From an uncultured Bacteroidota bacterium (GTDB taxonomy: Bacteria; Bacteroidota; Bacteroidia; Bacteroidales; P3): a DNA stretch of 62,763 bases. The notes under the pieces are model-generated. The model was not told the DNA's origin, made no database searches, and was given only the letters and a program-made list of their open reading frames with translations. Every line of letters starts with the position of its first letter. Positions within the stretch are counted from its first letter, which is position 1. Both the position numbers and the translations under genes were made by a program. Below, one piece after another: positions 3,274 to 51,345 of this stretch. The stretch lies in contig CACZUZ010000014.1 of the NCBI GenBank assembly GCA_902784465.1, forward strand, positions 1-62,763, given 5' to 3'.

Positions 3274-3340
3274 CCGCGTTAGGGATGGCAGCACGTTACA
3301 AATTCAAGGTTTATGACCCAATCAGACGGTGTAACGCCCT
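3274..3340 (+). repeat. Intergenic element beginning GCGTTAGGGATGG, copy 1
   Basis: It starts just after the stop codon at 3273. It shares GCGTTAGGGATGG, AGCA, CGTTAC, AAGGTT and a terminal AACGCCC with the element at 46946-47016. The inner arms CGTTAC and GTAACG pair. In both places it closes a plus-strand unit, so it may be a 3' end structure. The family is not known to me. Confidence 0.5.
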
Positions 3341-5157: not shown

Positions 5158-7431
5158 ATGAACATTATCACTAAAAAGTTCGACCTCGGCGACGGCCGCA
5201 TGATCGAAATCGAGACCGGCAAGCTGGCCAAACAGGCCGACGGCTCCGCCGTGGTTCGCATGAACGACACAATGCTCTTAGCCACTGTGTGCTCGAAGAA
5301 AGAGGTGGGCGAGAACGTGGACTTCATGCCCCTGACAGTTGACTATCAAGAAAAATACGCCGCCATGGGACGCTTCCCCGGCGGTTTTTTCAAGCGTGAG
5401 GCCCGCCCCAGCGAGCATGAAATACTCATCGCCCGACTCGTCGACCGCGCCCTGCGTCCTCTTTTCCCCGACAACTTCCATGCCGAAGTGCAGGTGAGCA
5501 TCACCCTCATCAGCGGCGACAAGAACACCATGCCCGACCAGTTGGCAGCCCTCGCTGCCGCCTCCGCCCTGGCCGTGAGCGACATCCCCTTTGGCGGTCC
5601 TGTCAGCGAGGTGCGCGTCAGCTACCTCGACGGCAAGTATGTCATCAACACCCCCATGCAGGACATCGACCGCGCCGACCTCGACCTTATCGTCGCCGCC
5701 ACCGCCGACAACATCATGATGGTGGAGGGCGAGATGAAGGAGGTCAGCGAGGATATCATGCTCGGTGCCCTCAAGGCCGCCCATGAGGCCATCAAGATAC
5801 AGTGCCACGTACTCGACGAGCTCACCGTCGAAGCCGGCAAGACCGAGAAACGCGAGTACTGCCACGAAATCAACGACGAGGAGCTGCGCCAGCGCCTCCA
5901 CGACGCCGTCTACCAGAAGTGCTACGACTTCAGCAAGCAGGGCATCGCCAACAAGCACATGCGCGAAGAGGGCTTCGAGGCTATCAAGCAGGAATTTATC
6001 GACGCCAACTATACAGAGGAGACCCTCACCGACGACATCAAGTTCATGATTGACCGCTACTACCACGACACCGAGCGCGAGGCCATGCGCGACATGGTTC
6101 TCGCTGAGCGTACCCGTCTCGACGGCCGCCAGCTCGACGAGATACGTCCCCTCTGGAGCGAGGTCGACTACCTGCCTTCCGCCCACGGCAGCGCCATCTT
6201 CACCCGTGGTGAGACCCAGTCGCTCAGCACCTGCACCCTCGGCACCAAGCTCGACGAGCAGGTCATCGACGGCGCCGTCATCGAAGGCACACGCAAGTTC
6301 CTCCTCCACTACAACTTCCCTGGCTTCGCCACGGGCGAGGTGAAACGTGCCGGCAGCACCAGCCGCCGCGAGGTGGGTCACGGCCATCTGGCTTGGCGTG
6401 CCCTCAAGGAGGTCCTCCCCTCGTCAGAGGAATGCCCCTACACCATCCGCGTCGTCAGCGACATCCTCGAGAGCAACGGTTCCTCGTCGATGGCCACCGT
6501 ATGCGCCGGATGCATGGCGCTGATGGATGCCGGTGTCAAGATACGCAAGCCGGTTGCCGGCATCGCCATGGGCCTCATCAGCAAGGGCGACAAATGGGCC
6601 GTCCTCTCCGACATCCTCGGCGATGAAGACCACCTCGGCGACATGGACTTCAAGGTCTGCGGCACCCGCGACGGCATCACCGCCTGCCAGATGGACATCA
6701 AGGTCGACGGACTGAGCTACGACGTGCTGGCCAAGGCCCTCGAACAGGCCCGCCAGGGTCGTCTCCACATCCTCGACCACATCCAGCAGACCATCCCCGA
6801 GCCGCGCGCCGACTACAAGGACTTCGTGCCCCGTATCGAGCAAATCAAGATACCCAAAGACTTCATCGGTGCCGTCATCGGCAAGGGTGGCGAAATCATC
6901 CAGAAAATCCAGGCCGAGACCAACACCATCATCAACATCGAAGAGGAAGGCGAATTCGGCATTGTCGACGTCGCTTCCGCCAACAAGGAGGACATCGCCG
7001 CCGCCATCAAGTGGATTAAGGACATCTGCACCGTCCCCGAGGTGGGCGATGTTTACGACGCCAAGGTCGTCTCGATTGTCGAGTTCGGCGCTTTCATGGA
7101 GTTCCTGCCTGGCAAGGAGGGCTTGATGCACATCAGCGAGTACCAGTGGGGGCGCACAGAGACCCTCGAAGGCCTCATCAAGGAGGGCGACGAGTTCCAG
7201 GTGAAGGTCATCGCCTTCGACGACAAGAGCGGCAAGATCAAGCTAAGCCGCAAGGCCCTCCTGCCCAAGCCCGAAGGCTACGAGGAGGAGAAGCCTGCCC
7301 GCGGTCCTCGCCGCGAAGGCGGTAACGGTGGCCCGCGCCGCGAAGGCGGCGACCGTGGCCATGGCCGTCGCGAGGGCAATGGCGGTGGCGATCGCCGTGG
7401 CCCCGGCAACGGTGGCGGCCGCCGTCGCTAA
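5158..7431 (+). CDS. pnp: Polyribonucleotide nucleotidyltransferase (PNPase)
   Basis: This phosphorolytic 3'-to-5' exoribonuclease is part of the RNA degradation machinery. The 757 residues carry two RNase PH-like domains: the first about 10-230, and the second about 310-550 with the core [14 protein letters not shown] and the catalytic-site segment [16 protein letters not shown] domain near 565-620 ([20 protein letters not shown]) and an S1 domain near 630-695 ([20 protein letters not shown]) follow. The last 50 residues are an Arg/Gly-rich tail (repeats of RREGG), an extension that should add RNA binding. A terminator follows directly. Confidence 0.97.
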
Positions 7432-22405: not shown

Positions 22406-22419
22406 TGGTCCAAAAGCCT

Positions 22420-22545
22420 CGTTATAACGTCATAACGAAATAACGTTATAACGAAGCCTCGAAATAACGAAATAACGTTATAACGTCATAACGAAGCCTC
22501 GAAATAACGTTATAACGAAATAACGTTATAACGTCATAACGAAAG
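22420..22545. repeat. Palindromic repeat cluster built on CGTTATAACG
   Basis: Five copies of the perfect 10-bp palindrome CGTTATAACG are separated by CGAAATAA, TCATAACGAA and AAGCCTCGAAAT spacers. The loop of the terminator that follows repeats CTCGTTATA. It is not a CRISPR array, because there are no unique spacers. It may be a host intergenic repeat or a protein-binding cluster. Confidence 0.75.
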
Positions 22546-31138: not shown

Positions 31139-31174
31139 CAAAGTTACACATGTTTCCATACCCAACAGGGGACA
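31139..31174 (-). promoter_or_regulatory. Putative late promoter, copy 1 (holin/portal operon)
   Basis: The minus strand reads TGTCCC, 22 nt, then TAACTTTG. The element is shared in spacing with five other sites. Start would fall about 10 nt before the ATG at 31122. Confidence 0.6.
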
Positions 31175-35581: not shown

Positions 35582-35617
35582 CAAAAATAAAAAATCCCCG
35601 CCCATTGGGTGGGGACA
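35582..35617 (-). promoter_or_regulatory. Putative late promoter, copy 2 (tape-measure gene), overlapping a terminator
   Basis: The minus strand reads TGTCCC, 22 nt, then TATTTTTG, 21 nt upstream of the tape-measure ATG. The same bases contain a hairpin (CCCCACCC-aat-GGGCGGGG on the minus strand) followed by six T, a good terminator for the upstream gene. Terminator and promoter may coexist. Confidence 0.5.
35594..35615 (-). terminator. Terminator of the 89-aa pentapeptide-repeat gene
   Basis: On the minus strand, a CCCC-A-CCC arm pairs with GGG-C-GGGG around a short loop and runs into TTTTTT. It sits inside the putative late promoter. Confidence 0.65.
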
Positions 35618-36492: not shown

Positions 36493-36665
36493 GGTTGATA
36501 AAAAAGGCCCGGTACGTGTCGTTCAGGACTCGAAACTGTCCTTGCGGGCATTACTGCTGCCGCACACGCCGAGCCTATGCTTTATGGCTCTGTCTTACTA
36601 TGTCTGGACACAAAAAAAGCCGGCGTTCCATAGGCCGACAGTCTCAGTGTCGTTTCGATTTTTGA
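36493..36665 (-). promoter_or_regulatory. Long leader with two terminator-like structures
   Basis: From the start near 36665, the minus-strand RNA first meets GTCGGC...GCCGGC followed by seven T (36612-36641). It then meets a second structure, AGGAC...GTCCT inside GCCC...GGGC, followed by six T (36501-36556). The 16-base sequence GTTCAAAAATCGAAAC occurs at both ends of the leader (36652-36667 and 36477-36492). This suggests attenuation or a small RNA. Confidence 0.5.
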
Positions 36666-37544: not shown

Positions 37545-37976
37545 TCAGAGAGTGTTAGGAATACCTGCGGCCACGCAGTCGGCCTCAACCATTTCCTTGA
37601 TAGCCTTACGGTCAGCGAGGAAGGCGAGATAGCCATCCTTGGCCGAGGTAGGCAGCACCTTCTCCTTGGCAGCCTGGTAGTCGTTGAACAGTTTTTGTTC
37701 GACGTGGCCGGGGTACTTCTCGGTAAGCAGCGTCTCGATGATGTTGTTCTGCGTCTTTGGGGCAGCCATCACCAGCGAGTTGTGGCGGTACTTGGTCACC
37801 GTCTCGGTGCGAGGTTCGTCGCCTTCCTCTTCCGGTTCCACGGTTACCTCTTCGGTGACAGTCTCCACGCCGAAGTTGTAGACGAAGCCGCCCTTGCCGT
37901 CCTGCAGCTCCACGAAAGTTTCGGGCATAGTGTCAGCGACAAGCCCTTCATGCAGTTTGATGATCTTTTTTTCCAT
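37545..37976 (-). CDS. Hypothetical acidic phage protein next to the DGR (143 aa)
   Basis: It begins MEKKIIKLHEGLVADTMPET with a strand-rich acidic half (VTVEPEEEGDEPRTETVTKY) and a helical C-terminal half with NDYQAAKEKVLPTSAKDGYL. Its start lies inside the last 29 nt of the reverse transcriptase gene, so the two are coupled. It does not look like the basic four-helix accessory protein Avd of other DGRs. A structural role is equally possible. Confidence 0.55.
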   Translation of the reverse strand: MEKKIIKLHEGLVADTMPETFVELQDGKGGFVYNFGVETVTEEVTVEPEEEGDEPRTETVTKYRHNSLVMAAPKTQNNIIETLLTEKYPGHVEQKLFNDYQAAKEKVLPTSAKDGYLAFLADRKAIKEMVEADCVAAGIPNTL

Positions 37977-39033
37977 ATTGATTTAAAATTTTGTTGATTA
38001 AAAATTCCTTGTGTTGTTTGCTGCAGTGTATCAGCCATCCATACTCCGAAGGGTATGCGTGTTTGATATCGTCTTCACACTGCAGGTTGTACTTTTCTTT
38101 AGTACGTTGCATCTTCTCAAAGAAGCGGTAGAGGATGCCCTTGCGCAGACGCACGTCGAATGGAGATATGCGGAACCCCACGTGGTCGATGTCGCGGCTG
38201 CTGATAGGGAACACTTGCCAGCTGGGGTTTATCTCCAGATGGTCGTGAGTGGCCAGGAACATAGCCGAGCGTGTAAACACCTCGTGCAGACGTTGCTTAT
38301 CGTCGCCGAGTATCAGTATATTATCCATATACACGAACAGGTAGTGGACGTGCAGCAGCTCCAGCGCGTAGTGTTCGTAGTCGGCCATATAGAAGTTGGC
38401 GAACATTTGGCTTGTGAAACGGCCTATAGGCAGAGCTATCTTGTTGCCGTTACAGTCCACAATCCGGTCCGTAATTTCCAGCAGATCTTCGTCGCCGATA
38501 CGCTTTCGGTACTTCCTTTTCAGCACCTCGTGGTCGATATTGTCGTAGTATTTATGGATATCCATAATAAGTGCATATCTTGTACCGGCCGGGTCGCGTT
38601 GTATGGCGGCCACGATATCGTCGAGGCAGCGGTGTATGCCTCTGCCCTTGATACACGAATAGGTGTGCTTGATGAGAGACGGACTCAGGATTTTGTCAGC
38701 CACGCTCACCACACAGTGGTCCACTATGCGGTCAGGGAAATACGGAGGTATTTTCAGCAGCCGTTCCTTCGGCTCGAAGATACGGCGTTCCCGTAGTGGA
38801 CCAGGAGTGTAGCGACGTTCTCGCAGCAGCCAGTACAGATAGTCAAGGTTTTCATAGAAGTTCTCGTTGAACTTGATGACAGCCTTGTTTCTGTGCTTTC
38901 TTACTTGCGACTTGGCTATGCAGTGCAGCAGGTTGTCCGGCTCGTACAGCAACCAATACACGTTGCGTACCTTCTTCGTCTTTGGGAAGAGGAAGAGGCA
39001 GTCTTCGAAGTCGCTGTAGAGGTAGTTGGGCAT
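37948..39033 (-). CDS. DGR reverse transcriptase (361 aa)
   Basis: It copies the template-repeat RNA with frequent errors at adenines. RT motifs in order: RYALIMDIHKYYDNIDHEVL with catalytic Asp158, LPIGRFTSQMFANFYMADYE (motif 4, SQ at 208-209) and the catalytic box YMDN at 235-238 (usually YxDD), then ILGDDKQRL. Size and the absence of maturase or msr/msd features fit a DGR enzyme, not a group II intron or retron. The template lies directly upstream and the variable gene just beyond. The second catalytic-box Asp is Asn here. Confidence 0.9.
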   Translation of the reverse strand: MPNYLYSDFEDCLFLFPKTKKVRNVYWLLYEPDNLLHCIAKSQVRKHRNKAVIKFNENFYENLDYLYWLLRERRYTPGPLRERRIFEPKERLLKIPPYFPDRIVDHCVVSVADKILSPSLIKHTYSCIKGRGIHRCLDDIVAAIQRDPAGTRYALIMDIHKYYDNIDHEVLKRKYRKRIGDEDLLEITDRIVDCNGNKIALPIGRFTSQMFANFYMADYEHYALELLHVHYLFVYMDNILILGDDKQRLHEVFTRSAMFLATHDHLEINPSWQVFPISSRDIDHVGFRISPFDVRLRKGILYRFFEKMQRTKEKYNLQCEDDIKHAYPSEYGWLIHCSKQHKEFLINKILNQYGKKDHQTA

Positions 39034-39155
39034 ACTCTGTGTCTTATTTTTGTGCCGAATATTTTTCGAGGTCTCTTGCTAAAAGCTACTAGAACTCATT
39101 ATATTCTATTTATACTATTTCACCAAGGGGTGAGGTCACATCCACATATAATATT

Positions 39156-39314
39156 TCAGATTATTCGGTATAGGCGGGCCCCGATATTCGCATTCGTATT
39201 CGCAGGACGGTTATTCGCATTCAGATAGCCGAAGCCCGCATTCGCTCCGTTATTCGCATTACCACCGAGCAAAGCAGCGAACCAGCCCTTTGTGGATGAA
39301 ACCTTGTTATTCAT
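39156..39314 (-). other. Short open frame containing the template repeat (52 codons)
   Basis: On the minus strand, an ATG at 39312-39314 opens a frame MNNKVSSTKGWFAALLGGNA that runs through the whole template repeat to TGA at 39156-39158. It is in the same frame as the variable region of the target gene. It may be a by-product of how the template arose by duplication, or the template RNA may be translated. Confidence 0.5.
39166..39288 (-). repeat. DGR template repeat (TR)
   Basis: 123 bp aligned without gaps to the variable repeat at 39421-39543 (offset 255). On the minus strand it is rich in AAT and AAC codons (NANNGANAG, NANNRPANTNAN). All 15 differences from the variable repeat fall on adenines of this strand (15 of 26), and none falls on the other 97 positions. 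Confidence 0.95.
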
Positions 39315-39354
39315 AATTAATTCTTATCCGTTTCAGTATTTGGTTTTTGCGGAT

Positions 39355-39386
39355 GGTGTGGCGGCACGCGCCGCGCGCCGCACACC
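39355..39386. other. Hairpin/cruciform just downstream of the variable repeat
   Basis: GGTGTG plus a bulged base plus CGGC pairs with GCCG plus CACACC around a GC-rich loop. DGRs often have a hairpin in this position, after the variable repeat, that stimulates retrohoming. Confidence 0.6.
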
Positions 39387-39413
39387 GTTTTCCGCATTGC
39401 TTCGCCTTGCCGA

Positions 39414-41042
39414 TTAATTACGGCACAGGCGGGCCCCGAGATTCGCAGACGTACGCGCAGGACGGAAAGACGCATTCAGATAGCCGAAGCCCGCATACGC
39501 TCCGCTATACGCATAACCACCGAGCAAAGCAGCGAACCAGCCCGCTCCTGAGCCGTGATAGTAGTAGTCGCCGACACCAGCGGCAGCACCGGCACCACCA
39601 CCTTGTACCATCGGCAGCGACAGGCCGTTTTCAGCCATTGACTCGCGAGCCAGGTAGCCGTCGGTCATCGGCATATTGGCGATGTTCACATAGCCGTTGG
39701 CTGCAGCGAGACTTTCAGCGCCACTGTCGGCAGGCGTGAAGTAGTGCGTCGGGTCGTCGCACCAGTAGGCCTTGAAGGTCGCACCGTCATTGTAGGCCAG
39801 CAGGTCGTCGCAGTTATGCCAGATGTAGGCGATAGGCAGTTCCACTCCGAAGAGGCATCCGCACTTGATTGTCTTCTCGGTGCCGTTGGCCATCTCCAGT
39901 TTGTAGGTCACATAGCCGGTGATGTCGCCGAGGGGAGCGGTCACGCCGTTGGGGATGAAAGGCTCATAGGCGGCAGCACCCCAGTTCTGCCATTCGGCCG
40001 AGGTCAGCTTCTCGGTTGTACCCTCTCCGAATGCTGCGACATTCTGGATGTCGTAGTTGAGATATTTGCAGCGGGCACCCCAGGCCAGCTCGTTGAGGAC
40101 GTGGAAGGAGCCTGTGTGCAGCACCTTGTCTTTGTCGCTCACGCTGAACGCCGTGTTGACGAGGTTGGCGGCAGCGCGGATGTCTGTACGGCTGATGCCG
40201 GTGCGACACATACCCAGCTCGCTGTGGAACGTTTCGTCGGTAGTGGTTCCGGTGACGTTGCCACCACGACACGCTTCAGCGAGCGTATGCCAGGCAGAGT
40301 CAGCCACGAGGCCTTCGTTCCCTTCGATTGTGCTGTCGAACTGACCGAAGTACGGAGTGCGGTAGTTTATGGTGCCTTCAGTGTTCTGCACGATATGGCG
40401 CAGGATAGGTGATTCGTCGCCGCTTGCGCACTGCATATAGCTGATGTTGTCCCATTTCAGCAGGCAGTTCGACACGAGGGCGTTCTGGACCAATGCACTG
40501 TTAGCTACCGTTGAGCCGGTATACAGCGAGGCCATAAACTTGCCAATCACCATACGAGGGATGTAGGTGAAGCCGGGCAGTTCGAAGTCGCTGTAGAGGC
40601 GATATCGGTCGCCGTCGCGGTACTCGACGCGCAGCCAGTGGCCGGGGATTTCCACCATCACGTTGCCGTCTTTACCCGTGAGGTCAGCCAAGGCAGTACC
40701 GCCTTCCTTGTAGCGGCTGTCGTTTTTGTCGAGGTAGTAGTTGACTGTTCCGTCACCCTTCTCGACAAACGAGCGGATGCGTTCCCACCACGGCTGGGCA
40801 GAAGGAGTCATCAGCTCCGGATTGACAGCCTCGAGCTCTTGACTGAGCGAGCTGCGCCAGTTTTTCTGGCAGATGCCGTAGTAAGGTTTGGAAGTCTTAA
40901 GGAAAGCCTCCAAAATTACGGCTGACTGGTCTACTTGCACTGTTTCACCGTTATCCTTACGGACACCGATTACCTGAACATTGCCTGCGTCGCCGTCGTA
41001 GACAGGCAGCGATGAGGCTCTTCTTACGTTAAATGTACTCAT
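39414..41042 (-). CDS. DGR target protein, putative variable tail or receptor-binding protein (542 aa)
   Basis: The last 42 residues lie in the variable repeat (GGYAYSGAYAGFGYLNASF, then RPARTSANLGARLCRN). Variable residues are interleaved with fixed Gly, Phe and Arg, as in the C-type-lectin folds of DGR targets. The N-terminal 450 residues are a large beta-rich domain (VDQSAVILEAFLKTSKPYY, VEIPGHWLRVEYRDGDRYRL, GFTYIPRMVIGKFMASLY) with no signal peptide, fitting a virion protein. It lies among tail genes, so diversification should alter host-receptor recognition, as with Mtd of phage BPP-1. The ligand is unknown. Confidence 0.88.
   Translation of the reverse strand: MSTFNVRRASSLPVYDGDAGNVQVIGVRKDNGETVQVDQSAVILEAFLKTSKPYYGICQKNWRSSLSQELEAVNPELMTPSAQPWWERIRSFVEKGDGTVNYYLDKNDSRYKEGGTALADLTGKDGNVMVEIPGHWLRVEYRDGDRYRLYSDFELPGFTYIPRMVIGKFMASLYTGSTVANSALVQNALVSNCLLKWDNISYMQCASGDESPILRHIVQNTEGTINYRTPYFGQFDSTIEGNEGLVADSAWHTLAEACRGGNVTGTTTDETFHSELGMCRTGISRTDIRAAANLVNTAFSVSDKDKVLHTGSFHVLNELAWGARCKYLNYDIQNVAAFGEGTTEKLTSAEWQNWGAAAYEPFIPNGVTAPLGDITGYVTYKLEMANGTEKTIKCGCLFGVELPIAYIWHNCDDLLAYNDGATFKAYWCDDPTHYFTPADSGAESLAAANGYVNIANMPMTDGYLARESMAENGLSLPMVQGGGAGAAAGVGDYYYHGSGAGWFAALLGGYAYSGAYAGFGYLNASFRPARTSANLGARLCRN
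39421..39543 (-). repeat. DGR variable repeat (VR)
   Basis: It forms the 3' end of the target gene, ending 7 bp before the gene's last base. Relative to the template it differs at 15 positions, all opposite template adenines. The GC-rich CGGGGCCCGCCT near its 3' end is the likely initiation-of-homology segment. Confidence 0.95.
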
Positions 41043-44118: not shown

Positions 44119-44154
44119 CAAAGATATACCATATAATATATTAAAGAAGGGACA
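44119..44154 (-). promoter_or_regulatory. Putative late promoter, copy 3 (baseplate/DGR operon)
   Basis: The minus strand reads TGTCCC, 22 nt, then TATCTTTG, ending 18 bp before the ATG at 44100. Confidence 0.65.
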
Positions 44155-45107: not shown

Positions 45108-45710
45108 TCATACTATATATTTTTTAATTCCTTCCACGTGAACACGGGCACACATTTCCTTGGCTTCGTCGGTCAGCAGCCATTCGCACTCTTCGCGGCA
45201 ATCCATAAAGAAATTCTCCGTCAGAACTGCGGGCATCGACGTGTGGCGAAGAACATAGAACCCCGCTTCCTGGTCAGCATCGCCGTCGCTGAAATCGCGT
45301 CGCAGACGTTTTTCCGCTGGGAAAATCTCGGCTGCTGCATCGTAGAGGCAGGTAGCCAGACGGTCGGCCTTGGTCTCGCCGCGAGAAGTATATGCGCTCC
45401 ATCCGTAGGCCTTAACCCACTGCCCTTTGTTCCCTGCAGCGTTGCAGTGAACCGACAGAAACACCGTCGGCACCTTCGACTGCTTTGTGATTGCGTTGGC
45501 TCTCCGGCAGCGTTCCTCCAGCGACACATCCCACTCTTCCGGCGTGATGATGCTGTATGTTATACCTTCCGCCTCGAGCATACCTGCGATGAGGCGCACC
45601 ACCTCGCGCGCCCACCGGTATTCCAGCAGCTGGCGGCCATCCTCCAATTTTGGGCTGCGTTTTCCGGCTGTATTTTCGCCGTGGCCATTATCAAGCAATA
45701 CGTGTATCAT
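45108..45710 (-). CDS. Endolysin: N-acetylmuramoyl-L-alanine amidase, Amidase_3 family (200 aa)
   Basis: Cleaves the amide between muramic acid and L-alanine in peptidoglycan. The family zinc ligands are visible: DNGHG (His10), SVHCNA (His88) and the catalytic Glu in VLTENFFMDCREE near residue 164. The body between them is typical of the family (RWAREVVRLIAGMLEAEG). There is no signal peptide, so release depends on a holin. Spanin-like and small late genes are adjacent, making a lysis cassette. Confidence 0.9.
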   Translation of the reverse strand: MIHVLLDNGHGENTAGKRSPKLEDGRQLLEYRWAREVVRLIAGMLEAEGITYSIITPEEWDVSLEERCRRANAITKQSKVPTVFLSVHCNAAGNKGQWVKAYGWSAYTSRGETKADRLATCLYDAAAEIFPAEKRLRRDFSDGDADQEAGFYVLRHTSMPAVLTENFFMDCREECEWLLTDEAKEMCARVHVEGIKKYIV

Positions 45711-45991
45711 AGCACTACTATTTGATTGTTAAACATTCTGATATTGTCGATACTCACCGGCACCACGTGCCCGATTTTGTTTCCAGCCGCGTCGCATTGC
45801 TGCACACCGCGAAGCCTTTCCTTCTTCATATTAGCCTTCAGTCCGGCGCAGAAGGCGTGGCTCATCGTCACAACTTCGCCATCCTTGTTGTAAAACTGGA
45901 TGCTGAAAAGCACCCGCTTTCCATACTGGTCTTCGCGGACCTCCATCTGACGCACAGCGTCGACTCTGCGTATCGTTTTATCATTTTCCAT
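45707..45991 (-). CDS. Hypothetical small phage protein (94 aa)
   Basis: MENDKTIRRVDAVRQMEVRE opens a strand-rich protein (RVLFSIQFYNKDGEVVTMSH). It is the first gene of the lysis segment and overlaps the endolysin gene by 4 nt. A late-type promoter core ends 6 bp before its start codon, so the message should be leaderless. No family is recognised. Confidence 0.6.
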   Translation of the reverse strand: MENDKTIRRVDAVRQMEVREDQYGKRVLFSIQFYNKDGEVVTMSHAFCAGLKANMKKERLRGVQQCDAAGNKIGHVVPVSIDNIRMFNNQIVVL

Positions 45992-45996
45992 ACTTG

Positions 45997-46032
45997 CAAA
46001 AATAGACCTTTCAAGACGTTATACAGGGGACA
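45997..46032 (-). promoter_or_regulatory. Putative late promoter, copy 4 (lysis segment)
   Basis: The minus strand reads TGTCCC, 22 nt, then TATTTTTG, 6 bp before the ATG at 45991. It points away from the structured non-coding region to its right. Confidence 0.65.
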
Positions 46033-46129
46033 GCCTATCTGGAAACCCGGAAAATCATCGCTCTATTCCATCGAAATGTTAAAAACTCCACAATAACTGT
46101 TCAAAAAACTGACCTGACGGTTCAAAAAT

Positions 46130-47020
46130 GTGACGCTACGCGATTAATGTGCTTCGAAAGCGGGGGCTCGCCCTATCGAGTAGCGTTCGCACAAGAGCGA
46201 TGCCATTACCGAAATGTGAATGGGGGGGGAGGGGGGGAGCGAGAGCCGACCCGCGCCTTTGCGCTGCCTTTGTGCAGCAGTTATTCCAGCAAGTGTGTTG
46301 CCGATAGGCGACACTCTTGCCTTCCACCGAAATTGTGTGCCGATGCAGCAAGAGGTTTCTGTGGTGTTAGCGTTCAGAGCTTGCTCCGAATAGCGAGGCA
46401 CAGAGTTCTCGAAGCAAGACGGCACTCTATTTCGGACATATACATCCGAGACCCTCTCGACCGTCAGGGAGAGTGAGTCTCACCGCTGAGGAAGCAGCGA
46501 CACGCCAGGAGCGCAGCCGTTGCCATCGCCGACAGATTGTGATGGTCTTGTGAGTGGCTTCTGTCAGCGTGAATGGCGACAGCGCAGCGACAAGTGTCGG
46601 TGCTTCCGTCCGCCGAAACGGTGTGCTTCCGACACTTCGGTGGCACTCCGTTTCGGTCATTCAATCACACACTCTCTCACTATCAGGCAGACACAACAGC
46701 AAGTAGAGAAGCGCTTGCCGTCGTGGATGCCAGAGTGAGAATGTGTGTGCTGCTCCGTGGCAATATCGGCAGCTCTTCGTAGAAGATGTGTTGATTTTGC
46801 CACACCTTATTACAGGTTGCCGGATAGAGAACCTGAGAACGTCCAGCAACAGCAGAATGGCAGACTGCCAGCGGCCAGGCTCTACATCACACACTCAGCA
46901 GTCCACGAAGTAGTCTGCCGAGCGAGTGACGTTGTGCCTGGCCGCAGCGTTAGGGATGGGAGCAACGTTACCGAAGGTTAAGGCGTACAGCCCGACGGCT
47001 ATGCCGGAACGCCCCACGCA
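46130..47020 (+). ncRNA. Candidate giant structured RNA (about 0.9 kb)
   Basis: No convincing reading frame fills the region between 46033 and 47033. Direct pairing search finds these helices: 46133-46139 with 46180-46186; 46289-46302 with 46307-46320; 46327-46342 with 46420-46435 (14 of 16 pairs, two U-U); and 46352-46363 with 46399-46410, enclosing a GAG-CUUG-CUC loop. Two interleaved pairs form pseudoknots: 46592-46600/46629-46637 crossing 46613-46621/46648-46656 (9 bp each, enclosed by 46570-46575/46658-46663), and 46859-46866/46912-46919 crossing 46871-46880/46936-46945 (8 and 10 bp). G-U and U-G pairs in several stems become A-C on the other strand, favouring plus. It lies divergent from a late promoter and tail-to-tail with TerL. 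GOLLD and ROOL RNAs are precedents in prophages. I cannot assign this to either. Confidence 0.6.
46946..47016 (+). repeat. Intergenic element beginning GCGTTAGGGATGG, copy 2
   Basis: It aligns with 3274-3340 over GCGTTAGGGATGG, AGCA, CGTTAC, AAGGTT and AACGCCC. Here GGCGT pairs with ACGCC around GCC-cgac-GGC. It closes the 3' side of the structured RNA region, as copy 1 closes a plus-strand gene. Confidence 0.5.
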
Positions 47021-47033
47021 TTATTATATATAA

Positions 47034-48791
47034 TCAAATATTTCTACCGCCTATTCTTAGAATACCCGAGCCACCGTGTTTCTTCCTTCCCAGCAAATTG
47101 CCGAACTTAGTCCACATAATCTTATCGGCAGCGTCGGAGAAGTGGGTAGCCTCCTCCGGCAGCACACCCGAGTCTGGGCGCTCAGAGGACTTATCCTTCT
47201 CCAGTTTATCCTTCACCTGTTTCACTTTGGCGTTGTTCATACTGATGAGCGTATAGTGGCACTTGTCCCCGTTAATACGGAAGCGAGGGTAGTTTTCATC
47301 CTGCTCGCTTAGGATGATACCCCACAGAACATACTTGTCCGACTGAGGCGGCTCCATACCCTTGTGCTCCTTCATCACGACAGACCAGCCGTGACGGTGT
47401 AGCACCTCCACAGCCATATCGTTGTATGTCCGGCTATTCATCACGGCAGGGTTTTTATGGTCGCCGTATTTGTCTTTAAAGAACACAGCAGTCTTGCAGC
47501 AATGCTGCTCGTAGTACTTACAGAACTGGCCGATAAGGTTGTCAATGACAACATTGTCGCTTCCGTCCGGTTTACAGTAGAACTCGTTTATCATCGTCTG
47601 GCACACCTGGTCAGAAGCGCAACCATTCACGAAGTCCCAGTGGCGAGGTTGAGACACCTGCATCACGCAGATCTTCGAGCCCCAGTCGAACGACAGTTCC
47701 AGAGGTGAAGAAGCGTCGCAGTCCTTGTCATAGACAGAAGATTTGAATTCCTCCTCCGACAAGTCGAAGCCCGGCTGAGACATCACGCCGCGCAGCTGGT
47801 CGTTGTCGTAGTGATTGTAGTAGACGTGTTTTCGCTCCTGGATAGAGTAGAAGCAGTCCTCAACCTTATCGTAGAAGAGGTTCATAATCTCTGTCATAAA
47901 GATGAGCGACGGCAGCTGCTTCTGATTCTTCAGCAGATAGTCGAAAGTCAGCATCTCCAAGTTGTCGAATGCATTCGACAAAGTGAACAGCACACCGTCC
48001 TTCGACACGAATGGAGCCATCTGCTGTTTGAGCCTGACAATTTCGTTCCATTGTCGGCGGAACTCTGGCACCAGTTCTTTGTTTTTCGTCTGCTTATACT
48101 CTTCCACCACACGCAGCAGGTCCACCTGCATCATCACCACACGGTTCCATATATCGAACAGGCGCACACCGCGTTCCTTATAATAATAATCGCCGTACTC
48201 CAGCACCCAACGGCCTTCCTTTGTCACCGGCATAGATGTCGAGTACTTGAAGCCGTGGTGCATAGGTACCGGGTTGCCACTTTTCTTCCCGAAGAACTCA
48301 TTGTTGCCACGGTTAGTAGGCGACACTTCGTTGTTGTATTGCTCTCGGTCTATAGTCAGAGCCTCATCCACAATCTCGTAGTCCGAGTTGGCACCACGTC
48401 CGCTGCCAGGTTCCGATTGTGATATCAGAACAAAGCGGGTACCGTTCCGAAACGATATCACGTTGTCGAACTTGTTCAGCTGCTCGTATGATGAGAGGAA
48501 GTCAGCCGGCGGCTTACGGCCAATCACATAGTCGTAGTCCTTTTGGTGTCCCATCTGGTTGAGCAGCTTCAGCGACGAAGGCAGCGTCCTTGTCAGCAGT
48601 TGTCCGAATGTCTTGCCTGTAATGGTGCAGATGCCTCGTGGCATATAGCGTATGATGGCATCCATCTTGAAACCGATGTCGAACGACTTACCCGTGCCGC
48701 GACCTTCCACCGACACCTCGCAGGGTGCCTGTAGCAGCAGCTTCGGAAGCTGGGCTTTGTTGCCATACAGATACACGTCAGCCATAGGCAA
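47034..48791 (-). CDS. Terminase large subunit (TerL, 585 aa)
   Basis: The motor and nuclease that package DNA into the capsid. The Walker A box is GRGTGKS at residues 30-36, a Walker B-like segment is SDYEIVDEALT near 135-145, and a nuclease-type acidic strand is LELSFDWGSKICVM near 365. Further acidic residues lie around SDAADKIMW near the C-terminus. Length fits phage large terminases. The small-subunit candidate and three other packaging-module genes lie directly upstream in the operon. Confidence 0.85.
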   Translation of the reverse strand: MPMADVYLYGNKAQLPKLLLQAPCEVSVEGRGTGKSFDIGFKMDAIIRYMPRGICTITGKTFGQLLTRTLPSSLKLLNQMGHQKDYDYVIGRKPPADFLSSYEQLNKFDNVISFRNGTRFVLISQSEPGSGRGANSDYEIVDEALTIDREQYNNEVSPTNRGNNEFFGKKSGNPVPMHHGFKYSTSMPVTKEGRWVLEYGDYYYKERGVRLFDIWNRVVMMQVDLLRVVEEYKQTKNKELVPEFRRQWNEIVRLKQQMAPFVSKDGVLFTLSNAFDNLEMLTFDYLLKNQKQLPSLIFMTEIMNLFYDKVEDCFYSIQERKHVYYNHYDNDQLRGVMSQPGFDLSEEEFKSSVYDKDCDASSPLELSFDWGSKICVMQVSQPRHWDFVNGCASDQVCQTMINEFYCKPDGSDNVVIDNLIGQFCKYYEQHCCKTAVFFKDKYGDHKNPAVMNSRTYNDMAVEVLHRHGWSVVMKEHKGMEPPQSDKYVLWGIILSEQDENYPRFRINGDKCHYTLISMNNAKVKQVKDKLEKDKSSERPDSGVLPEEATHFSDAADKIMWTKFGNLLGRKKHGGSGILRIGGRNI

Positions 48792-51104: not shown

Positions 51105-51345
51105 TTCCTTGTAATAATTGTAATATTTGTAACATCGTTGATTGTCAACGATATACAATATTACAACCCTCCAAAAAATGTTACAATTATTACAATTTGG
51201 GGTCAAAATGGCCCAAACTTACCACTTGAAGAGAAAAATATTACAGAATATTACAATTTATTACAATGTTGTAATAATGTAATTTATTGTATATCAATAA
51301 TATTACAATTATTACAATTATTACAACGTTTTTCAGCTGAAAATA
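51105..51345. repeat. AT-rich tract of ATTACAATTATTACAA-type repeats
   Basis: About a dozen copies of ATTACAA or its complement TTGTAAT, in clusters such as ATTATTACAATTATTACAA, lie between the packaging and capsid operons, with one perfect inverted repeat TCGTTGA-ttg-TCAACGA (51136-51152). GTAATAATTGTAATA recurs beside the int terminator (23957 onward). Candidate roles are the packaging start or a replication origin. Confidence 0.55.

Follow-up and report, generated by a model that had tools for sequence, protein, structure and literature searches.

Computational analysis shows that, in one clade of Bacteroidales phages, a conserved structure of multiple hairpins is encoded in the interval following the terminase large subunit gene (terL). 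This is a real, lineage-specific phage structure and very probably RNA; judging from its sequence, it probably represents a phage RNA of a new kind, not assigned to any family, whose hairpins persist in related phages while their letters differ. The window, that is, the whole stretch of 62,763 nucleotides under analysis, is contig 14 of a 2.53 Mb genome (G000; 84% complete) and carries a prophage with a tRNA-Gly and an integrase at 22.6-24.0 kb and its structural genes on the minus strand. The structured non-coding region, composed of a rod array and a 3′ element, spans 46123-47033 on the minus strand, read in the sense of terL, and its DNA occurs a single time in its own genome. It lies within a minus-strand operon between terL (47034-48791, minus), the upstream neighbour, and gp94 (45707-45991, minus), a small conserved late gene of 94 aa with no assigned function that is followed by the endolysin gene (45108-45710). 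The terL product was recognized by tblastn to annotated terminases of Microcystis phages (29% identity, 94% coverage), while no match to it was found in PHROG or Pfam. The preliminary description had placed a GC-rich structured RNA at 46130-47020; the structured part is slightly longer than that, the stretch at 46947-47012 is a palindromic element also present elsewhere, and the GC enrichment is only mild (0.54). The absence of a credible gene claimed there was borne out, as the ORFs of the terL-gp94 interval are small and overlapping, and a coding gene was rejected because the indels between relatives are non-triplet: a 95% identical copy in another genome of the genus (locus L015, genome G089) differs from the window by 32 substitutions over 1039 aligned bases and by indels of 5, 14, 2, and 1 nt, and the first 670 bases of the relatives L016 and L018 differ by 43 substitutions and indels of 2, 1, and 1.

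In the window, eight rods of 34-118 nt each stand in tandem, with a sequence-conserved 3′ element after them, and six of the seven linkers between rods measure 5-12 bases, the one after rod R1 being 65 bases long. All of these features are read on the minus strand. Directly after terL comes the palindromic element (46947-47012; GCGTTCC...CCCTAACGC, and also GCGTTAGGGAT...AACGCCC), which is found twice in its own genome, with a related sequence at 3278-3292, and also has related sequence at second places in two other genomes; L003 and L005 are among the relatives that have it, and it scored 15.8 bits on the plus strand against Rfam Flavo-1, below the gathering score of 42. Rod R1 (46871-46945; fold of -55 kcal/mol) consists of a 10-bp base, an A.A step, a C-G pair, a second A.A step, and then a long stem. 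Rod R2 (46755-46805; GTGTGGCA...TTGCCACGG) has hairpins of similar look in L016 and L042. Then follow rod R3 (46666-46749), rod R4 (46613-46656), with the arms CCGAAACG-GAG/CAC-CGTTTCGG and an A.A step, rod R5 (46490-46607), and the small rod R6 (46448-46481), whose stem was read from the sequence. Rod A (46327-46435; CCGAAAT A.A G-C A.A GTGCCG / CGGCACACAATTTCGG) has counterparts in L016, L017, L018, L043, and L045, and rod B (46288-46321, or 46285-46324 with 3 nt on each side) reads GGCAAG A.A GTGT...ACAC ACTTGC. The 3′ element, element C (46123-46219; TCACATWTCGGTA...TAGGGCGAGCCCC..., followed by a T run), shows the highest sequence conservation of the region and is kept by sequence in 12 loci; since it has no convincing covarying consensus structure, it may be terminator-linked or a DNA element. 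A C7-T-C8 tract at 46221-46243 (G runs on the plus strand) stands just before element C, and C runs are also seen in L017 and L043.

Several lines of evidence revealed that these helices exceed what chance offers, as the preliminary description had supposed. The fold of the whole region had a z of -11.2 on the minus strand and -7.4 on the plus strand, with none of 20 shuffles as stable on either. In 200-nt windows, the mean z in the region was -3.06 on the minus strand (n=5) versus -0.64 (sd 1.47, n=184) elsewhere in the prophage, and -2.25 versus -0.61 on the plus strand, with single windows elsewhere (54200, 60800) roughly as low as the region. The same measure was not lower in the interval of L017 (-0.36 versus -1.14 elsewhere) and hardly lower in that of L045 (-1.68 versus -1.19). 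Regarding stems, the region of the window holds 7 strong ones versus a mean of 0.87 and a maximum of 3 in 100 shuffles. When each of ten phages was compared with its own 100 shuffles, no shuffle reached the paired bases of any of them, and the stem count lay beyond all shuffles in every phage except L042, reached by 4 of 100. An unbiased count, in which G.T and A.C were weighted alike and each sequence was trimmed close to where element C ends, gave 34 strong stems and 552 Watson-Crick pairs in seven non-redundant phages, against a mean of 5.18 and a maximum of 12 stems in 200 shuffle sets, and a mean of 8.12 and a maximum of 17 when 200 sets were drawn from elsewhere in the same contigs. This count left out L015, L018, L043, and L046 as near duplicates, together with L019, L020, L048, and 13 other intervals; a count over 11 loci, L018, L043, L020, and L048 included, yielded 53 stems versus 13.2, and in an earlier one that favoured G.T, L017 and L047 did not stand out from 10 shuffles. 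For eight rods located by their arms only, the inner parts had z values from 0.07 to -6.2 (mean -2.6), the rod B inner part of L017 (0.07) being no better than shuffles and the seven others ranging from -1.1 to -6.2.

Conservation concerns a series of separate rods, which differ between phages in number and in distal sequence; the compact, knotted, and ornate fold initially envisaged is not supported. The two crossing helix pairs noted initially do exist, one formed by 46613-46656 with 46592-46637 (9/9 bp) and the other by 46871-46945 with 46859-46919 (10/8 bp), but that they are special was not borne out: five crossings of perfect helices of at least 8 bp occur in the region and 5 of 50 shuffles reach five, while one crossing of helices of at least 9 bp occurs and 1 of 50 shuffles reaches one. 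Every crossing uses bases that are also paired in local rods, the 9/9 crossing being an alternative pairing of the R4 loop with 46592-46600. In L015, the second crossing is intact and one arm of the first is broken, and in the other eight phages the exact crossing arms are absent as a pair, though other letters could pair there. Conserved pseudoknots are thus not supported, being near chance in number and with the first one broken in the 95% relative.

The nearest relatives by terL are Bacteroidales metagenome-assembled genomes; 27 loci came from species genomes, and viral contigs supplied 13 loci and 2 more. Such a terL was present in 6 of 190 genomes of the family, all six belonging to the genus of the window. 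The comparison covered 27 intervals, running from terL to gp94, or to the contig end in L043 and L046; outside it stood terL relatives without a gp94 match (those two excepted) and L033. Ten distinct phages (the window, L015, L016, L017, L018, L042, L043, L044, L045, and L047) have patchy shared sequence and strong stems in the same genomic place despite their diverged terL, in intervals of 538-1058 bases, of which those of L016 and L043 continue into other sequence. L046, identical to L045 over 525 bases, shares the patchy sequence too. In L020 and L048 (terL 62% alike), element C is kept with no rods and no stem excess, the 282-base interval of L019 is mostly a 33-base tandem repeat (6758-6886, 3.9 copies) of palindromic units that makes two strong stems with A.A, and the remaining intervals are short (218-321 bases) or kilobases long. 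The post-terL intervals of L016, L020, and L048 carry extra ORFs, one being DnaJ-like at its start and one methyltransferase-like by eye; the place itself is likely a cargo hot spot, as far as its sequences tell.

The rod array is known only from one Bacteroidales phage clade. Among 120 genomes of the genus, four had any DNA match to the region, and the G089 copy alone was full-length besides the window itself. Known phage records gave 10 stray matches covering 2-4% of the query with E-values of 1 or worse. The pattern of element C was found in four viral contigs, all already known, and, among 393 genomes sampled from the order, in that of the window alone; that of rod A with a 25-55 nt loop was found in one viral contig, the known one of L043. 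The arms of rod B were found by pattern in 17 viral stretches, of which a covariance model of this rod (model R1, below) accepted L093, which is the known L044 contig, with an E-value of 3.8e-5; the best unrelated stretches reached only 0.28 and 0.36.

Covariation among homologues, which the preliminary description had named as a check, was analysed by alignment on rod B and is present there. In the alignment of L017, L043, and L045, 12 of 36 pairs were changed on both sides versus a shuffle mean of 4.7, with none of 500 shuffles as high, slid structures gave 1-5 such pairs, and 87.9% of cells were paired; these figures come from three sequences only, with the structure derived from the same alignment. 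The helices of rod B are supported by covariation in this sense. For apical arms, pairing within the same phage gave -13.6 to -21.3 kcal/mol and pairing with the partner from another phage -3.0 to -12.3 kcal/mol, and for middle arms some cross-phage pairings were as strong as own pairings. Moreover, model R1, a covariance model with structure built from the same three phages, and model R2, built likewise without structure, were compared. In a search of 36 sources (481 kb, up to E 1), model R1 returned 12 matches, recovering L044 (E 0.0001), L047 (0.0019), and the G089 copy and the window (0.0049 each, 95% alike), all in the same interval and sense; the rod B of the window was thereby found from three other phages. 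The other eight matches were the three training loci, their three reverse strands, and two further places in the L044 and L047 intervals. Among these new loci, model R2 found only L044, at E 0.25, even when extended to E 10. On the 120 genomes of the genus, model R1 reached E ≤0.01 in G071 alone, a genome that contains one of the training sequences, under stricter filters that missed the own genome. Together, synteny in relatives, rod B covariation, and the recovery by model R1 as compared with model R2 uphold the proposal of a structured non-coding element of the prophage.

These results bear on the notion of passive palindromes, by-products of template switching or repeats that are tolerated in a spacer without function. 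Fast turnover would suit it, as would the simple palindromic repeat of L019 in the same place and the little constraint between the two closest copies: the 32 substitutions separating the window from L015 include no both-sided change in either single-sequence fold, and 12 of 17 changed pairs (fold of the window) or 13 of 18 (fold of L015) are broken. Nevertheless, it is very unlikely in view of the covariation of rod B, of diverged rods that are recovered only by a structure-aware model, and of an A.A step that recurs.

This A.A mismatch inside stems is the hallmark of the array. Several rods bear a 1×1 A.A step near the base, most commonly framed by 5′-GAG / 5′-CAC, and 19 of 43 steps tabulated at a lower threshold were placed between two G-C pairs in that frame. 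The strong stems of the seven phages contain 101 non-Watson-Crick positions, G.T included, of which 35 are A.A and 6 T.T, versus 209 A.A among 1800 such positions in other stretches of the same contigs; the stem and A.A counts are not fully independent, because the phages share homologous rods. The A.A step alone does not decide the strand, because A.A on one strand is U.U on the other. In the same stems, G.T outnumbered A.C (24 versus 12), with p 0.065 when taken by itself, p 0.025 in a Fisher comparison with other stretches, and p 0.02 to 0.08 across eight settings, while one-sided stem changes between orthologues (22 to G.U, 27 to A.C) were neutral on strand. The mismatch types, the lower fold z, and the minus-strand operon make it quite likely that the functional strand is the minus strand. 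A plus-strand RNA was not favoured, given the mismatch types and the lack of a TAnnTTTG motif on the plus strand in the stretch of the window.

The same asymmetry weighs on a DNA-level reading, in which the imperfect palindromes would serve packaging, recombination, or replication by forming cruciforms or single-strand sites, and element C, with its CGTGCGCACG-like palindrome, would be the core site. Sites in double-stranded DNA should not display an excess of A.A over T.T, nor the weaker one of G.T over A.C, both strand-specific. REP/BIME elements are imperfect palindromes between genes, a likeness shared by the rods, but dispersed copies of rod A are lacking in its own genome, where its arm occurs once exactly and its five one-mismatch matches do not fold into a rod, and no Y1 transposase (RAYT) was found in this genome (84% complete; one genome). 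A dispersed host repeat was accordingly not found for rod A, and was found for the 46947-47012 element. A DNA-level role is therefore unlikely, the arguments for it being an element C conserved by sequence with no covarying structure found, the persistence of this element without rods in L020 and L048, and the extra ORFs in the intervals of L016, L020, and L048.

Concerning transcription, the late-promoter-like motif TGTCCC-N22-TAnnTTTG occurs four times in the window versus 0.06 expected, always on the minus strand (31139-31174, 35582-35617, 44119-44154, and 45997-46032). The last copy stands before gp94, as it does in relatives, and indicates where the following operon, and not the RNA, begins; it ends 5 nt before the gp94 start, so that a leaderless message is possible. 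Over the last 500 bases of terL up to its stop, and among the rods of the window, neither this motif nor plain TAnnTTTG is found, and with no Bacteroidetes-type promoter of its own found, the predicted RNA would most simply be a 3′ extension of terL transcripts. A sigma-70-type scan of 45600-47400 gave three weak matches versus 1.0 expected, which is chance level, and since one of them lies inside terL (47341-47314, minus strand) an own promoter stays conceivable. It is likely, on these sequence signals, that the minus strand is functional and that its RNA is made late as an extension of the terL transcript.

This arrangement could also be that of a cis-acting 3′ untranslated region, whose rods would keep 3′ exonucleases off the terL message and act as an insulator between it and the gp94/lysis operon, with no need of a partner protein in trans. 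A location immediately downstream of terL and ahead of a late promoter, and the T run after element C, agree with such a role, for which any strong stem would do, fitting the fast sequence change. Yet one or two hairpins, not eight, are needed by a stabilizer, the A.A step is left unexplained, and no classical terminator was found on the minus strand in the 45600-47400 scan, all of which makes this explanation rather doubtful.

Comparison with described RNAs gave no assignment. No family of the whole Rfam 15 library fitted the array, whether searched in the window (gathering score) or in the region and six relatives (E-value mode); a c4-2 RNA elsewhere in the window (36503-36576, minus strand) is above its gathering score. 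The preliminary description, which could place the RNA in neither the GOLLD nor the ROOL class, is sustained by the lack of covariance matches to either in the window, the region, or the six relatives, and the further models that it had suggested (HEARO, OLE, raiA) did not match either, nor did phi29 pRNA or self-splicing introns; HEARO, raiA, phi29 pRNA, and the introns are presumably all present in Rfam. GOLLD is often near a tRNA island, and its RNA rises at phage lysis. The window has one tRNA, 23 kb away from the region and beside the integrase. The pRNA of phi29 is short and forms a ring; it resembles the region as a phage RNA, the region adjoining the packaging terminase gene, a likeness of neighbourhood alone, and differs from it in that short ring and in the absence of an Rfam match. 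Type III toxin-antitoxin RNA repeats and phage decoy RNAs are repeated RNA structures that bind a protein; the region differs from them in having no recognised adjacent toxin gene, and its rods do not repeat one another in sequence. The parts of the literature that the search returned name no RNA of this kind downstream of terL in phages of Bacteroidales.

GOLLD is described as a large structured phage or prophage RNA, with function not known, composed of a variable 5′ part and a conserved 3′ part, and ROOL as folding in a complex way that includes several pseudoknots (PMC12286853). The region resembles GOLLD, as described there, in its size, phage origin, more conserved 3′ part, and variable 5′ part (PMC12286853), and ROOL in being a large phage or prophage RNA, with 'rumen' in the name of ROOL. 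It differs from the knotted core of GOLLD by its rods in a row and the lack of a covariance match, and from the complex conserved pseudoknotted fold of ROOL by crossings that are near chance, the first of them broken in the 95% relative. A self-assembling ornate RNA forming cages or filaments from many copies, working like GOLLD or ROOL, would account for the features shared with GOLLD, but it is quite improbable, as no conserved core fold emerged from the alignments made, the rod number varies widely, and Rfam gave no match.

The explanation tentatively preferred overall, though held with somewhat less than even confidence, is a late terL-linked rod RNA with a docking or decoy role. The predicted RNA would be made late with the terL transcript, as its 3′ extension, would stop close to the T run in element C or at it, and would be followed by the next late promoter, which starts gp94. 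One putative double-strand-RNA-binding protein, from host or phage, would recognize every rod by its A.A-marked base; beyond this base, the rods would drift freely while staying double-stranded, and their number would set the valency. Such a multivalent docking or decoy RNA, a possibility that the sequence patterns suggest, would explain the kept base motif, the diverged tips, the gain and loss of rods, and the relatives without the array. More speculatively, and with low confidence, the comb of A.A-flagged rods may represent a new phage RNA class, expressed late with the terminase. It would then be a multivalent RNA serving a double-strand-RNA-binding protein as decoy or scaffold; this protein might be a nuclease or a factor of host defence, and the rod tips would diversify in an arms race.

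Other features were observed in the window. A probable diversity-generating retroelement occupies 37948-41042, with a reverse transcriptase (37948-39033, PF00078) beside a 542-aa protein (39414-41042), and in the relative L009 a 44-aa piece of this protein is repeated next to its gene. AT-rich palindromic repeats (ATAACGTTATAACG..., TTGTAATAATTGTAATATTTG...) at 22416-22537 and 51109-51326 are perhaps operators.

Large phage RNAs without known function are few. The array is kept in place in ten phages, and its A.A step, rods, and 3′ element offer concrete experimental handles. Moreover, a row of independent rods would add a design unlike the knotted cores of GOLLD and ROOL.
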